Shown: positions 44,015 to 62,642 of the stretch, in pieces
How positions within the stretch are numbered: position 1 is the stretch's first letter
Layout of the letters: each line of letters opens with the position of its first letter
Translations under genes and position numbers: made by a program
Assembly: GCA_002783265.1 (NCBI GenBank)
Contig: PFFG01000009.1
Span: forward strand, 248,001-312,000
DNA: 64,000 nucleotides
Source of the DNA: Candidatus Gracilibacteria bacterium CG17_big_fil_post_rev_8_21_14_2_50_48_13
GTDB taxonomy: Bacteria; Patescibacteriota; Gracilibacteria; 1-14-2-50-48-13
Direction of reading: 5' to 3'
Notes under the pieces: model-generated
Told to the model about the DNA's origin: nothing
The model's input: only the letters and a program-made list of their open reading frames with translations
Databases searched by the model: none

Positions 44015-44031
44015 TTAGTATAGGTTAGTGA

Positions 44032-47062
<3,031 letters not shown>

Positions 47063-47117
47063 TCATTCAACCGTACTTTTCCCATCAGTTTACGAGCAAT
47101 CGCAAATTGGTGGGGTG

Positions 47118-47146
47118 GACTTAACTGATAATTTATGTCGATAACA
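47118..47146 (+). repeat. 3' arm of 23S processing stem
   Basis: Complement of 43986-44014; see that entry. It lies between 23S and 5S. Confidence 0.85.
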
Positions 47147-47161
47147 GACAGAAAAAAGGCA

Positions 47162-47285
47162 TTGTCTTGGTGATTATGCTAGCAAGGGTACACCTCATCC
47201 CATTCCGAACTGAGAAGTTAAGCTTGCTAAGGCCGATGGTACTTCCCGCGTTGCGGGCGGAAGAGTAGGTAGTCGCCAAGACAGT
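47162..47285 (+). rRNA. 5S ribosomal RNA
   Basis: TTGTCTTGGTGATTATGCTAG at the 5' end and CGCCAAGACAG at the 3' end form the terminal helix. Internal landmarks CCCATTCCGAACTGAGAAGTTAAG (shown here as two adjacent conserved blocks, CCCATTCCGAACTG and AGAAGTTAAG) and GGCCGATGGTAC are present. Confidence 0.95.
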
Positions 47286-56544: not shown

Positions 56545-57501
56545 TTAGCCCTTTTTCTGCCAGTCTTCTATGGCTTCTCTCAGCAAGGTTTCTTCCTCTT
56601 TTGAAAGAATTCTGCTGGAATCTGATATGCAGTACCCGAGAACACTTGCAATGACCTGACCGACGTATTTGTTGTCTTCTTCCTTCAACATTCCTGCGAG
56701 GCGTTTTCGCGCTTCAGGGTTGTCTTCATAGACAAGCGTGTGCACTGCGGCGATGCGCACATCCTCCGTCGGATGCGTTTTTGCGATTGCAAAAAGGAAC
56801 TCTCGGGTTTCCTCATCCATCACACTGCGCAGACTCATAAGCATTTCCATGGCGCGAGGAATTTCGCTTTTTTCCACAAGCCCACCAAATCGATGGGTAA
56901 AGTAGGCGCGCAGTGCCCGAATATGCATAGCGACAAGGTCTTTATCGGTTTCCTTAGCAAAAATATGGTCGAGATCTGCTCTCGCCTTGGCAATAACACT
57001 TGGTCGCCCACCATGTTTGAGTTGGTCAAGGGCTGCAAGCATTCTATGGTGATCGGAAATGAGATTTTCAATAGCATCCGGCAGCTGCTTGAAGCTTGAG
57101 GGGTAACGCTCGGAAAGTCCTTCAGAACTGAGGTGCAAGAACGACATGGCAACCAACATCTCTTGAGATTCACTGAGCTTTCGGTCTTGTAATCGTTTTT
57201 TCAATTCCAGCGTGACCAGTACAAGGAGCGTACCATTTGCCATTTTGTCTTCAAACAAGGCACAGAGAATTTCCGTAGGGGTGTCGCTTAGCTTCTCGCG
57301 AAAGGCAGCAATCTCTTCCTTTTCCTCAAGATCTCGAAGATTTTCCGGTGTCGGCAGCGTTGCACTTTCCGCGAGGATCGCCTTTTGTTTGTCCTCCTGC
57401 TCAAGGGTTATGGAGTTTTCCAGAGTATGTTCAAGCTCTTTCTGTGCGTCTACATTACGATCGAGAAAATCGCTTCGTGTGTGGGGCAGGTTTGGTATCA
57501 T
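56545..57501 (-). CDS. HEAT-repeat-like hypothetical protein
   Basis: The protein has 318 residues, all helical. The C-terminal part has short repeats like HEAT or armadillo units (EDVRIAAVHTLVYEDNPEARKRLAGML). The N-terminal 80 residues are acidic and may be coiled coil. No function can be named. First gene of the operon that leads to trmD; the next gene starts nearby. Confidence 0.65.
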   Translation of the reverse strand: MIPNLPHTRSDFLDRNVDAQKELEHTLENSITLEQEDKQKAILAESATLPTPENLRDLEEKEEIAAFREKLSDTPTEILCALFEDKMANGTLLVLVTLELKKRLQDRKLSESQEMLVAMSFLHLSSEGLSERYPSSFKQLPDAIENLISDHHRMLAALDQLKHGGRPSVIAKARADLDHIFAKETDKDLVAMHIRALRAYFTHRFGGLVEKSEIPRAMEMLMSLRSVMDEETREFLFAIAKTHPTEDVRIAAVHTLVYEDNPEARKRLAGMLKEEDNKYVGQVIASVLGYCISDSSRILSKEEETLLREAIEDWQKKG

Positions 57502-57646: not shown

Positions 57647-58918
57647 ATGATCGACATTAAAGATTTACGAGAACGACCTGAATATTACCGGGAATCCACT
57701 GCTGCAAAAAATGGAGATCCATCGCTTATTGAGACGGTTCTCCAGCTCGATGAGGAACGCCGCGCCCTTATTTTTGCGCGTGATGAACTGAAGGCGAAGC
57801 AGAACTTACTCACGAAACAGATTCCAAGCGCTTCCGCGGAGGATCGAGGGCGACTTGTTGCTGAGTCAAAAGCCCTGGGTGATCAGGTGAAAGAGGCGGA
57901 TGCGAAGTCCGCTGAGATTGAAGCGGCCTATTTTTCAGCGGTGCATCAGATTCCTAATCCATTGCATCCGAGCGTACCCAAGGGGGCGAGTGATGAAGAA
58001 AACATTGTTGCGCGTGTCGTGGGTGAAAAACCAAATTTTCCCTTTCCCGTTAAGGAACACTGGGAACTGGGTGAAGATATGGATCTCATTGATATGGAGC
58101 GGGGGGCTAAGGTGTCTGGTAGCCGCTTTGTCTACCTGAAAAATGACCTTGTGATGCTGGAGTTTGCGCTCATTTCTTTTTGTTTGCAGAAGCTCTACGC
58201 AAAGGGCTTTACGCCTATGATCCCTCCTTACATGGTGCGTGAACGGGCCATGTACGGTACAGGGTATTTCCCTGATGCGGAAAATGGCGTGTATCATGTG
58301 AACCCGGGAGAAGACGATTTGTTTCTCATTGGAACCTCAGAAGTTTCTCTGGTGAATTATTACGACAATGAAGTGATTGATGTCTCCAAGCCGCAGCGCT
58401 TCGTCGGGTACAGCCCTTGTTTCCGTCGTGAGGCGGGGAGCTATGGAAAAGATGTGAAGGGTATTCTGCGCGTGCATCAGTTTGAAAAGGTGGAGATGGT
58501 GAGTTTTTGCCATCCTGATCAGAGTTGGGAAGAGCACGAATTTCTTCGCACTGTTGAGGAGGAAATTTTGAGTGACCTTGGTCTGCCATACCAGGTGCTG
58601 AATATCTGTAGTGGCGATCTTGGCGGTTCTGCAGCCAAAAAATATGATTTGGAGGCGTGGCTTCCTGGTCAGGAAAAATACCGGGAAATGACTTCCACCT
58701 CGAATACAACGGATTACCAGTCTCGTCGTTTGAATATTCGTTTCCGCGATGAAGAGGGGAATATGCAGTATGTCCATATTTTGAACGGTACGGCGACATC
58801 GATGCGTCCGCTCATTGCCATTATGGAAAACTATCAGCAGGAAGACGGTACAATTCTTGTTCCGGAGGTGCTTCGCCCTTATATGGGCAAGGATCGCATA
58901 ACCAAAACAACGGCATGA
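57647..58918 (+). CDS. serS: Seryl-tRNA synthetase
   Basis: The protein has 423 residues. The N-terminal coiled-coil arm (about 30-100) is followed by the class II core: motif 1 in IPPYMVRERAMYGTGYFP, motif 2 FRREAGSYGKDVKGILRVHQF, motif 3 NGTATSMRPLIAIMEN. It charges tRNA-Ser and its stop TGA overlaps the ABC gene start (ATGA). The 145-bp gap before it holds no clear signal. Confidence 0.98.
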   Translation: MIDIKDLRERPEYYRESTAAKNGDPSLIETVLQLDEERRALIFARDELKAKQNLLTKQIPSASAEDRGRLVAESKALGDQVKEADAKSAEIEAAYFSAVHQIPNPLHPSVPKGASDEENIVARVVGEKPNFPFPVKEHWELGEDMDLIDMERGAKVSGSRFVYLKNDLVMLEFALISFCLQKLYAKGFTPMIPPYMVRERAMYGTGYFPDAENGVYHVNPGEDDLFLIGTSEVSLVNYYDNEVIDVSKPQRFVGYSPCFRREAGSYGKDVKGILRVHQFEKVEMVSFCHPDQSWEEHEFLRTVEEEILSDLGLPYQVLNICSGDLGGSAAKKYDLEAWLPGQEKYREMTSTSNTTDYQSRRLNIRFRDEEGNMQYVHILNGTATSMRPLIAIMENYQQEDGTILVPEVLRPYMGKDRITKTTA

Positions 58919-59586
58919 CTACTCCGCTTCTCACGGTGAGTGACCTTACGCTTGGTTATCAGGAGACGCCGCTGATGTCGGACGTCTCCTTTTCTCTGCA
59001 GCCGGGTGAAGTGTGTGCGATTGTGGGGCATTCAGGGACGGGGAAAACAACTCTCCTTCACACCATTGCGGGCATTCTTCCCGTTACGAATGGCCGTGTG
59101 CATTTTCGGGATCAGGATATTTCTCTCCTGAGTGGAAAAGACCGTCAGGTGTATCTTGCACAGCGACTTGGGCTCGTGTTTCAGGCATTTCATATTGTGC
59201 CTTTTCTCTCGGTGGAGGATAACGTTGCCTTGTCTCCTGTTTTTGGCCACACCTGGCAGGGACATGAACTTTCCCAAAAGGTGCGTGAGGTACTTGATCA
59301 GGTGGGTCTTGCGGACATGGCAGGGAAATATGCCCGTGAACTTTCTGGAGGGCAGCGGCAGCGGGTGGCGATTGCGCGCGCTATGGTGAATGCGCCTGAT
59401 CTTATTTTGGCAGATGAACCAACGGGGAATCTTGACCAGCACACGGGAGATACGGTGATGGAGACGCTCGTGGATCTGGCGAGAAATCGTGGCAGCAGCA
59501 TGATTTTTGTGACCCACGAAGAAGCCTATTTGCGCCTAGCAGACAGGGTTTTTGCAGTAGAGAATGGGAAACTTTTGCAACGCTAG
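58915..59586 (+). CDS. ABC transporter ATP-binding protein, LolD/MacB type
   Basis: The protein has 223 residues. Walker A GHSGTGKTT, Q loop FQAFH, signature LSGGQRQRV, Walker B LILADEPTG, His switch VTHE. The lineage with LolD, MacB and FtsE ATPases fits its PFLSVEDNV and EPTGNLD segments. No permease gene is adjacent, so its partner is unknown. It is coupled to serS by ATGA, an unusual pairing. Confidence 0.93.
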   Translation: MTTPLLTVSDLTLGYQETPLMSDVSFSLQPGEVCAIVGHSGTGKTTLLHTIAGILPVTNGRVHFRDQDISLLSGKDRQVYLAQRLGLVFQAFHIVPFLSVEDNVALSPVFGHTWQGHELSQKVREVLDQVGLADMAGKYARELSGGQRQRVAIARAMVNAPDLILADEPTGNLDQHTGDTVMETLVDLARNRGSSMIFVTHEEAYLRLADRVFAVENGKLLQR

Positions 59587-59587
59587 T

Positions 59588-59918
59588 CGGCATGAAAAAA
59601 GTCGGGGCGTACTTCGACATATCGTATGAACGAAGGAACCCCGACTTTCTTTGTGGATTCCAGCACGCAACGACGTATCGTTCGGACCAGTCTCCTGATT
59701 TCTCCTTGCCAACCCTCTCTCTGCTAACAAGTGTTACATAGAGAGCGGCCTCTTCAAGCCTCCGGGTGAATGTGTTTTTGTTTTTTTGAGGTGTTTTTTT
59801 GTTGTTTTTGTGTTTGGTTTTTTTGTGTTTTTTTGGTTTTGTACCCGGATGAAACAAGGAGATGCAAACGCAGCGCGCTCCCATTTCCCGATTTCTGGCT
59901 AATTGCAAAGGATCAAAT
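59588..59918 (-). ncRNA. Candidate structured RNA of about 330 nt with long A/C-rich loop
   Basis: On the minus strand a promoter (59925-59952) leads into an RNA whose ends pair: CTTTG..CCAG near the 5' end (59906-59910, 59895-59898) with CTGG..CAAAG near the 3' end (59660-59663, 59649-59653). Inside, TCCGGGT/ACCCGGA (59843-59849 with 59761-59767) closes a 75-nt loop of almost only A and C. A hairpin with CTCTCT/AGAGAG and TAACA/TGTTA (59717-59745) follows, then AACGA/TCGTT near 59670-59683. A terminator ends it. It does not match tmRNA, RNase P, 6S or SRP RNA by eye. Confidence 0.5.
59595..59648. terminator. Terminator after serS-ABC and at the end of the candidate RNA
   Basis: A 10-bp stem AAAGTCGGGG/CCCCGACTTT (59598-59607 with 59639-59648) with an inner CTTCG/CGAAG stem. 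It is followed by six T on the minus strand and TTTCTTT on the plus strand, so it can serve both directions. Confidence 0.8.
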
Positions 59919-59924
59919 CATAGA

Positions 59925-59952
59925 AGTATAGCAAAAAGGGTATGAATTGCAA
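59925..59952 (-). promoter_or_regulatory. Promoter of the candidate structured RNA
   Basis: On the minus strand TTGCAA (59947-59952), 16 bp, TATACT (59925-59930). Confidence 0.6.
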
Positions 59953-60132: not shown

Positions 60133-60648
60133 ATGGGAAACTTCTGGAAGAATCTGGTGCCCAATTGGGCGAAGAACAATTCTTCTGCAGTAACTGCAGA
60201 AGAGGTTGTCCAGCCTAAACGGACACCGATTAAGCCACCAGTACCCTCGACACCACCGCAATCAACTGCACTGACTCTAGGCAATACAGTAGAGCAGGAA
60301 GTTCTCAAGGAGCATAAGGAATTTATGCGTAAATCCGAAAGAACTTTCCAGCGCGCCTCCAAGGCGCTCACTGTCCGGCCGCAAATTGCTGAGGTTGCAA
60401 GCCCCCTCCCGGGGGTGATGATTGGTCGTCGTGAGTACGAAAATGGCTCCGCAGAGTTTACGTGCATATACAACCCCCGGTTGGTTGTGCATCACTCTGT
60501 AGGGCTAAAGCCTATGGAAGAACAAATGTCCCTACGTCGCATTGACGGCGTAGAAGACATTGAATCCTTCCTGTCCATGTTTGCCCCTCGCGTTGGACGT
60601 CCGTTCACCGCGAAGATCCCACTCCAGTGGGAGCGAATCGGGGTATAA
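60133..60648 (+). CDS. Hypothetical protein, 171 residues, with strong ribosome site
   Basis: AAAGGAGATGAA stands just before the ATG at 60133, a near-perfect Shine-Dalgarno sequence and unlike most other starts here. The protein has a Pro/Thr-rich region at 28-48, a helix with EVLKEHKEFMRKSERTFQRA, and a C-terminal soluble domain ending ERIGV. No signal peptide or known family. It may be a recent arrival or simply a highly translated gene. The 59953-60120 stretch upstream shows no other gene. Confidence 0.7.
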   Translation: MGNFWKNLVPNWAKNNSSAVTAEEVVQPKRTPIKPPVPSTPPQSTALTLGNTVEQEVLKEHKEFMRKSERTFQRASKALTVRPQIAEVASPLPGVMIGRREYENGSAEFTCIYNPRLVVHHSVGLKPMEEQMSLRRIDGVEDIESFLSMFAPRVGRPFTAKIPLQWERIGV

Positions 60649-60653
60649 AAAAT

Positions 60654-60688
60654 AAGAGGTCATCTATACGATGACCTCTTTTCTTTTT
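60654..60688. terminator. Bidirectional terminator
   Basis: An 11-bp perfect stem AAGAGGTCATC/GATGACCTCTT (60654-60664 with 60670-60680), loop TATAC, then TTCTTTTT. Confidence 0.9.
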
Positions 60689-60703
60689 GTATAATATAAG
60701 ACT

Positions 60704-61957
60704 TTAGAGCGCTTTGTGACCCATTTGTGTCGATTTTGATGCTTCGAGCGCAAGTTTATCCTGAATACTGGATTGTTTTTCACAATATTGCGCCAGGGGG
60801 TTATTGTCTATGTCGAACCCGAATGTTACTAAAAATTCTGTCACTAGGCCCCATTTAAGGGATAGATATGCCTTAGACTGGAGTTCTTCTTCCGTCCTGT
60901 CTGCAAAAAGCCCTTCCTCTTCAAACTGGGCGCGGTAGAAACGAATACTGCTTTCTTGATTTTCAGTCCATGGCTTCATAATCCCGGCTTCTATGTCAGC
61001 ATTGAAGTGATTTTCTATGGTGTCAAAAATGATTTTTGCCGTTGTTTGTGGGTTTGAGACGAAGGCATGTAAAGACTGTTTTGACTGAAAAAACTCTGGC
61101 ACGCGGGCAAATTGTTCACGGTGATTCCAAAGAATATCTTTATTTTTAGAGCCGATATAGCCAAGAAGGTGATGTTCCATAACCATAACACCGCAATCAT
61201 CGAAGAACTTCAGAAGATATTGCCATTTTTTCTTTGCATCAAAGGATTCATAGAAGCCCATTGCACGATAGTCTTGTTCAAAGGCGTTTAGTCTAGCCAA
61301 ATCCTCTTCATTCATGGGGGCTATGTCGCCGCGCTCCCTTTGTGTGTCGTAGTGTTTTCTAATGGTGTCAAAAAGCGCACCAACCGATAACTCGGGATTG
61401 TTGATAAACTGTGTTAATCCAAATTCAGTATTCATGAAGTCAGGGACTGTTGCGTGACCCACTTTACCATCGTAGTCTTTAGATTCTGAAAAGGTTGGGA
61501 TTCCTTTTTCTTTAATTTTACCCGCTGCAAAAGTCATGAGTGCACCCTTCTTGAGGGCTGCTTGCTCCTTGTCGTAGGCTTCTCGAGCAAGGCGGGCAGA
61601 TTGTATCTCAGGCAGTTTTTCTTTCGCTTCAGCAAAATCTATAATCTTCAAACTCGCTGCGTCATCTACAAACTCACCACCCCATGATTCAGGCTCGACC
61701 TGACGAGGGCGCTGGATGCGTGCGGGCTTGAGAAGATTGTTGATTTTTGTCGCCATCGCATATTCTACGCCATGAATAAAGTCCCCTGTGCGATCGACAG
61801 CATTTTTTGCCACCTGCGACACGGGCGTCTCCAAAACAGTTTTCACACGGGATGCAAAGTTCTTCACAACGCCAAAACCCTTGGAAAAACGTTCTTTCAC
61901 CCCGCTAAGGAGTGGAACTTTTTCCTCGTGTTGGTTTGTTGTATTGATTGCAGCCAT
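60704..61957 (-). CDS. Hypothetical protein, 417 residues
   Basis: The ATG at 61957 (MAAINTTNQHEEKV) is preferred; the frame is open to 62083 but that part overlaps gmk, and a TATGAT box lies just upstream. The protein is largely helical and charged. Two similar segments each pair a FDTI..HFNADIE/FDTIRKHYDTQRE type stretch with an acidic, Trp-containing helix, so there may be an internal duplication (about 190-270 and 300-370). No family recognised, no signal peptide. Confidence 0.7.
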   Translation of the reverse strand: MAAINTTNQHEEKVPLLSGVKERFSKGFGVVKNFASRVKTVLETPVSQVAKNAVDRTGDFIHGVEYAMATKINNLLKPARIQRPRQVEPESWGGEFVDDAASLKIIDFAEAKEKLPEIQSARLAREAYDKEQAALKKGALMTFAAGKIKEKGIPTFSESKDYDGKVGHATVPDFMNTEFGLTQFINNPELSVGALFDTIRKHYDTQRERGDIAPMNEEDLARLNAFEQDYRAMGFYESFDAKKKWQYLLKFFDDCGVMVMEHHLLGYIGSKNKDILWNHREQFARVPEFFQSKQSLHAFVSNPQTTAKIIFDTIENHFNADIEAGIMKPWTENQESSIRFYRAQFEEEGLFADRTEEELQSKAYLSLKWGLVTEFLVTFGFDIDNNPLAQYCEKQSSIQDKLALEASKSTQMGHKAL

Positions 61958-62054
61958 AGATTTTGGGAGAATTGTACACACAAGTTGTATCATAGTTTCT
62001 GTACTTTCGCAAAGGTTCTGGTAGTTTTTTAGTAGACATGTAACTGCAAATCTA

Positions 62055-62642
62055 ATGCCATACGAACGACGACTGATTGCCATTGCTGGTACCTCCGGAT
62101 CGGGGAAAGGAACCGTGATTGCTTCACTTAAAGAACGTCACCCAGAGTTTGTTTACCCCGTGTCCTTAACGACCAGAGCACCGAGGCCGGGTGAGATAGA
62201 TGGAGTGACGTACCATTTCGTAACAGAAGACGCTTTTCTTCGTGCGGCAGAGCAAGGCGAGCTCCTTGAATGGGCAGTGAATCACGAAAAGGAATACTAC
62301 GGCATGCTGAAAAAACCTGTGGAGGATGCCCTTGCGGCTGAGAAAACGGTGGTGAGAGAAATGAGTTTGGCGGGCATTGTCACCTTGCGCAAAACGCCTT
62401 TGGCAGAGCAGCTCTATGCAATTTTTCTGATTCCACCCTCTGAAGAGGTTATGCGTGCACGCATTCTCAAACGATCGGCGCTGCCAGAAGAGGAAGTGAC
62501 GAGGCGACTAGCGACGGCAAAGAAAGAGATCGAAATGGCCTCCATTTGTGATGTATCTATTCTGGCGGAAGAAGGAAAACAGGCAGAAATCTATGCCTTG
62601 GTGGAGGGCGCCATACGTCGATCTGCATCATCACACCTGTAA
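62055..62642 (+). CDS. gmk: Guanylate kinase
   Basis: The protein has 195 residues. P-loop GTSGSGKGT, GMP-binding SLTTRAPRPGEIDGVTYHFV, then EWAVNHEKEYYGMLKKPVEDAL and the LID region RILKRSALPEEEVTRRL. It phosphorylates GMP to GDP. The segment NHEKEYYGMLK replaces the usual HGNYYGT form, so it is somewhat divergent. The next gene starts 3 bp after its stop. Confidence 0.88.
   Translation: MPYERRLIAIAGTSGSGKGTVIASLKERHPEFVYPVSLTTRAPRPGEIDGVTYHFVTEDAFLRAAEQGELLEWAVNHEKEYYGMLKKPVEDALAAEKTVVREMSLAGIVTLRKTPLAEQLYAIFLIPPSEEVMRARILKRSALPEEEVTRRLATAKKEIEMASICDVSILAEEGKQAEIYALVEGAIRRSASSHL

Follow-up and report, generated by a model that had tools for sequence, protein, structure and literature searches.

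We propose that a structured RNA is likely to be transcribed from the minus strand at positions 59588-59952 of the window, by which we mean the whole 64-kb stretch of DNA that was analysed. The narrower reading, that this is a stand-alone, lineage-specific non-coding RNA (ncRNA) whose A/C-rich loop serves as a single-stranded landing platform, we regard as evenly balanced between right and wrong. The host genome (1.28 Mb in 11 contigs) is the sole representative of its family and of its order among the genomes compared.

The candidate RNA occupies a gap of about 360 bases between the gene for an ABC-transporter ATPase and the next frames on the plus strand, and because it has no minus-strand gene within 2 kb downstream, it is not an obvious leader. 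A promoter-like site, pairing of the ends, a 7-bp stem, an A/C loop, further hairpins and a terminator had been described here by an earlier note made from the sequence, and all of them lie on the minus strand within 59588-59952. The features of the locus and its surroundings are as follows.

58915-59586, plus strand: ABC-transporter ATPase gene, adjoining the candidate RNA region.
From 59947, plus strand: possible 60-aa frame, on the other flank of the candidate RNA region.
60133-60648, plus strand: 171-aa frame, on that same other flank.
56545-57501, minus strand: next minus-strand gene downstream of the candidate RNA, about 2 kb off.
59925-59952, minus strand: promoter-like site from a consensus scan, with TTGCAA (59952-59947), 16 nt, and TATACT in the extended -10 element TGCTATACT (59933-59925).
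59590-59918, minus strand: proposed ncRNA transcript of about 330 nt, from fold z and non-coding codon statistics, with predicted start and end.
59905-59911, minus strand: P1 5' arm, CCTTTGC, pairing with 59704-59710 in the minimum free energy (MFE) and centroid structures.
59704-59710, minus strand: P1 3' arm, GGCAAGG, in the same two structures.
59851-59895, minus strand: P2, a long irregular hairpin from the fold (z -4.07).
59843-59849, minus strand: P3 5' arm, TCCGGGT, of the stem that closes the A/C loop (pair probability 0.87-1.0).
59761-59767, minus strand: P3 3' arm, ACCCGGA, from the fold.
59768-59842, minus strand: A/C loop of 75 nt, mean unpaired probability 0.998.
59788-59793, minus strand: CACCUC within the A/C loop, where the A/C tract proper has its single U.
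59747-59760, minus strand: P4, the small hairpin GGCUUGAAGAGGCC, directly 3' of P3, from the fold.
59717-59745, minus strand: P5, hairpin CUCUCU...AGAGAG, from the fold (z -1.95 alone).
59655-59695, minus strand: P6, hairpin from the fold (z -1.5 alone).
59595-59648, minus strand: intrinsic terminator, a GC-rich hairpin followed by T6, from sequence and fold.

In this architecture P1 pairs the ends of the RNA and closes a multi-branched domain, and the loop held by P3 is open and almost purely A and C (A53 C19 T3 G0). Transcription would probably start near 59917-59919. The promoter-like site agrees with the consensus at 9 of 12 positions and carries TG ahead of the second hexamer. It had been called a good promoter, and although the extended -10 element is indeed present, the site as a whole is an ordinary match that is not significant alone, with 2 such sites found in 1 kb versus 0.8 expected. 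The terminator region, scored over the final 70 nt of the unit (59588-59657), folds with z -5.9. The terminator is absent from the list returned by an automated terminator scan, possibly through a loop exceeding the size allowed by that scan, and it is possibly bidirectional, ending the plus-strand ABC gene as well.

The computed fold is specific to one strand. By minimum free energy the whole unit gives z -4.2 to -4.9, compared with -0.6 on the opposite strand, and as the terminator alone could yield such a value it was removed before re-scoring, which left z -4.4 versus 0.03 for the same bases on the opposite strand. Removal of both the terminator and the A/C loop gives z -4.6 to -5.1. The strand-specific structure proposed earlier is thus supported. 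Of 302 windows of 192 nt that were taken as controls from the rest of the 64-kb window, four fold better than the target (z -4.6). These four are both strands of two places, and a terminator-like hairpin lies within one of the places (60501-60692). Neither P5 nor P6 is significant singly. On the plus strand the pair probability of the P3 stem is 0, and of 100,000 random flanks 139 gave a perfect stem of at least 7 bp at the tract edges (p ~0.0014). No other A/C tract in the 1.28-Mb genome reaches 36 nt. Taken together, the positions of the elements, the fold z, the control windows, the P3 stem and the unique tract indicate that the observation is real, and they support the strand assignment. 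A strand-specific fold, a terminator and non-coding sequence, the general marks of a bacterial stand-alone structured ncRNA, are all found at this locus.

A rather unlikely alternative is that there is no RNA gene here, and that the folds arose by chance in an intergenic stretch where slippage has lengthened a simple T/G tract next to a (bidirectional) terminator belonging to the ABC gene. The tract shows a weak tandem repeat with periods of 8-24 nt, which would fit such an origin, as would the placement of the hairpin at 59595-59648 directly 3' of the ABC stop codon, from where it could terminate that gene, and conservation was not detectable among the 353 genomes of the class that were searched. 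However, the one-strand fold signal persists outside both terminator and tract, the P3 stem sits exactly at the edges of the tract, and no comparable tract exists elsewhere in the genome.

Searches for relatives, by DNA comparison or by covariance model, found no homologue in these 353 genomes. Many matches were returned by the DNA search with the whole unit, the best of them mostly to the A/C tract and several within coding sequence, and we rejected these as look-alikes of the tract. A search of the class genomes with just the 3' part returned nothing convincing, its single extra match being 32 nt long (E 0.008). Model R2, a covariance model built for P4-P6 from one sequence, matched the host genome only. 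Phage records yielded nothing, nor did exact patterns in viral contigs. A synteny search of contigs with the ABC protein found distant ABC proteins only, at 27-42% identity. With no relative found wherever we searched, the locus is a good candidate to encode a new RNA, short of proof.

No Rfam family reaches its threshold at the locus, in agreement with the earlier description of an undescribed RNA. That description had also set aside tmRNA, RNase P RNA, 6S RNA and SRP RNA by eye, and the searches bear it out: the locus has no Rfam or ARAGORN match to tmRNA, no Rfam match to RNase P RNA (RF00010), and no model match to 6S or SRP RNA at E up to 10. The tmRNA and RNase P RNA of this genome resemble the candidate in length (330-400 nt) but are encoded at other places, the tmRNA (RF00023) at C1:21568-21991 and the RNase P RNA (RF00010) at C1:221264-221671 (160.7 bits). 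A literature search for ncRNAs of Gracilibacteria, Absconditabacteria or Patescibacteria gave nothing relevant, and little work appears to exist on the regulatory RNAs of deeply branching bacteria with small genomes.

The best sub-threshold Rfam match at the locus is to CrcZ (RF01675), at 16.2 bits versus a gathering score of 95 and on the A-rich part only. CrcZ and its relatives are Hfq-titrating small RNAs of Pseudomonas and Azotobacter, and in Pseudomonas CrcZ has six A-rich stretches that can be bound by the distal face of Hfq (PMC4063720). The candidate is likewise a proposed stand-alone ncRNA of 300-400 nt with a long A-rich single strand interrupted by C, and it could in principle be a protein-titrating sponge of this kind, in which the A-rich loop would sequester an RNA chaperone and so release the mRNA targets of that chaperone. 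We think this unlikely, as the covariance-model match is insignificant, the candidate has a single A-rich tract compared with six in CrcZ, and Hfq (PF17209), which would be the obvious partner for an A-rich RNA, was not found in the host genome. The last of these is a weak negative, because the same search detects Hfq in only 5 of 14 control genomes, and a divergent Hfq may be missed.

It is very improbable that the minus strand instead encodes a small protein containing a linker rich in lysine, in a frame of 168 codons at 59402-59908 with a TTG start. This frame does stay open across the entire unit, but it does so more easily because sequence made of A and C only cannot encode a stop. The codon statistics of the frame give -0.16 per codon, or -0.26 when the loop is left out, whereas the real genes within the 64-kb window, which served as the reference, score +0.19 (sd 0.11). 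The lysines of the tract are all AAA, whereas the genes use AAA and AAG in a ratio of 431:399. As the frame also continues into the ABC gene in antisense, and neither PHROGs nor plasmid searches gave it a match, we rejected it as coding; translation of this frame would have counted against the RNA put forward by the earlier note, and the frame scores as non-coding sequence.

Our preferred reading is a stand-alone ncRNA, and we infer that it is transcribed, acts in trans and offers its loop as a platform. In this model the minus strand of the gap that separates the ABC-ATPase gene from the following plus-strand gene would be transcribed into an RNA of about 330 nt, which would end at its own terminator. 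The multi-branched domain closed by P1 would display one loop of 75 nt, and the A/C composition of this loop would keep it single-stranded, so that it could serve as a landing platform for a protein that binds single-stranded RNA and is not Hfq, for a U/G-rich RNA, or for both. If true, a single long, unpairable A/C loop held by a structured RNA would be an unusual way to display a binding platform.

The CACCUC within the loop has the same sequence as the anti-Shine-Dalgarno core that is typical of bacterial 16S rRNA. We speculate that it acts as an anti-Shine-Dalgarno-like seed, which would pair with the Shine-Dalgarno sequence GAGGUG of an mRNA and block ribosome binding. This reading of the seed is post hoc, and by a calculation made by hand the chance occurrence of CACCUC, given the composition of the tract, is ~0.003-0.01. 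The fullest version of the model, in which the locus represents a new class of ncRNA of an isolated small-genome lineage, combining a structured domain, a 75-nt A/C platform and an anti-Shine-Dalgarno-like seed in translation control that is free of Hfq, is a tentative proposal that we consider doubtful as a whole.

Elsewhere in the window we made several observations that concern its other genes. The frames at 60133-60648 and 60704-62083 encode two hypothetical proteins of 171 and 459 aa, neither with a Pfam family above the cut-off nor with a PHROGs match. Past the 171-aa frame, the hairpin within 60501-60692 (AGAGGTCATC...GATGACCTCT, with a T-rich tail) is very stable (z -7.9 on the plus strand and -6.2 on the minus strand), and it is probably a bidirectional terminator. 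Ribosomal RNA genes lie at 44031-47281, comprising the 23S gene (44031-47065) and a 5S gene; no 16S gene was matched anywhere within the 64-kb window, and the 16S gene is apparently unlinked from 23S and 5S.

A separate RNA came to light among the look-alikes of the tract, three of which (L006, L024 and L025) belong to an RNA of about 450 nt that lies between genes and is common to another family of the class, here called f5. In this RNA, hairpins joined by ACAAAAAUAAAAACAAAA-type linkers accompany a hairpin-pseudoknot core, ARAGC(AUGGUGAAU)GCUYU...AAUUACC (model R1), and a terminator. Almost every one of the 48 f5 genomes carries it, although the exact count varies with the cut-off: model R1 lists 44 f5 genomes at E <=0.1, a few of them weakly, and is at best marginal outside f5, while a DNA search with L025 matched 43 of the 48, in part via the linkers. 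Its pairing is borne out by strong covariation, as 93.5% of cells pair across 28 sequences, with two-sided change in 22 cells versus 6.2 in shuffled data, and in the 3' part (22 sequences) both sides are changed in one or more sequences at 27 of the 37 predicted pairs. Of 30 loci, 29 have the RNA beside a gene resembling ligA, a gene resembling the DHH family, or both, these names being our own reading of the translated sequences. Its loci include L058 (G091:C2:6710-7210:-), L064, L067, L071, L072, L075 and L081, among others. It has no Rfam match and is probably a new RNA family. Since this RNA has A-rich single-stranded linkers, such linkers do occur in true ncRNAs of the class, and since it exists without an Rfam entry, RNA families are under-catalogued in the class.

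That the candidate RNA is itself a distant member of this f5 family is extremely improbable: the two come from the same class of bacteria, and both are intergenic and have hairpins, A-rich single strand and a terminator of their own, and an exact string of 25 nt (query 154-178 of the candidate) recurs in L006, but model R1 reaches just 8.9 bits at the candidate locus, on the A-rich part only, and has no match in the host genome, and CACCT, which lies in the loop of the candidate, is readable in L006 as a stem arm with AGGTG, so that by these tests the two are not homologous and we rejected the f5 RNA as a homologue. Their architectures are also unlike, the f5 RNA being longer, with several short U-containing linkers and a conserved pseudoknot core, and their neighbours differ, with ligA/DHH genes beside the f5 RNA and the ABC ATPase gene beside the candidate.

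Family f5 reads TGA as glycine, as judged from open frames. Together with the size of the host genome, this trait suggests that the lineage resembles small-genome groups such as Gracilibacteria, Absconditabacteria or Patescibacteria. In four places two copies of the f5 RNA lie within about 1 kb, at L100 (G084:C25), L104 (G118:C34), L099 (G119:C12) and L103 (G120:C15). In a genome of another family (G238, family f20), positions 1501-1700 of locus L019 contain hairpins separated by CAAAAAAACAAAAA linkers, with CAGGATGATAGCAATATCATCCTGTTTTT as an end that resembles a terminator, and this stretch is possibly a further A-linker RNA.
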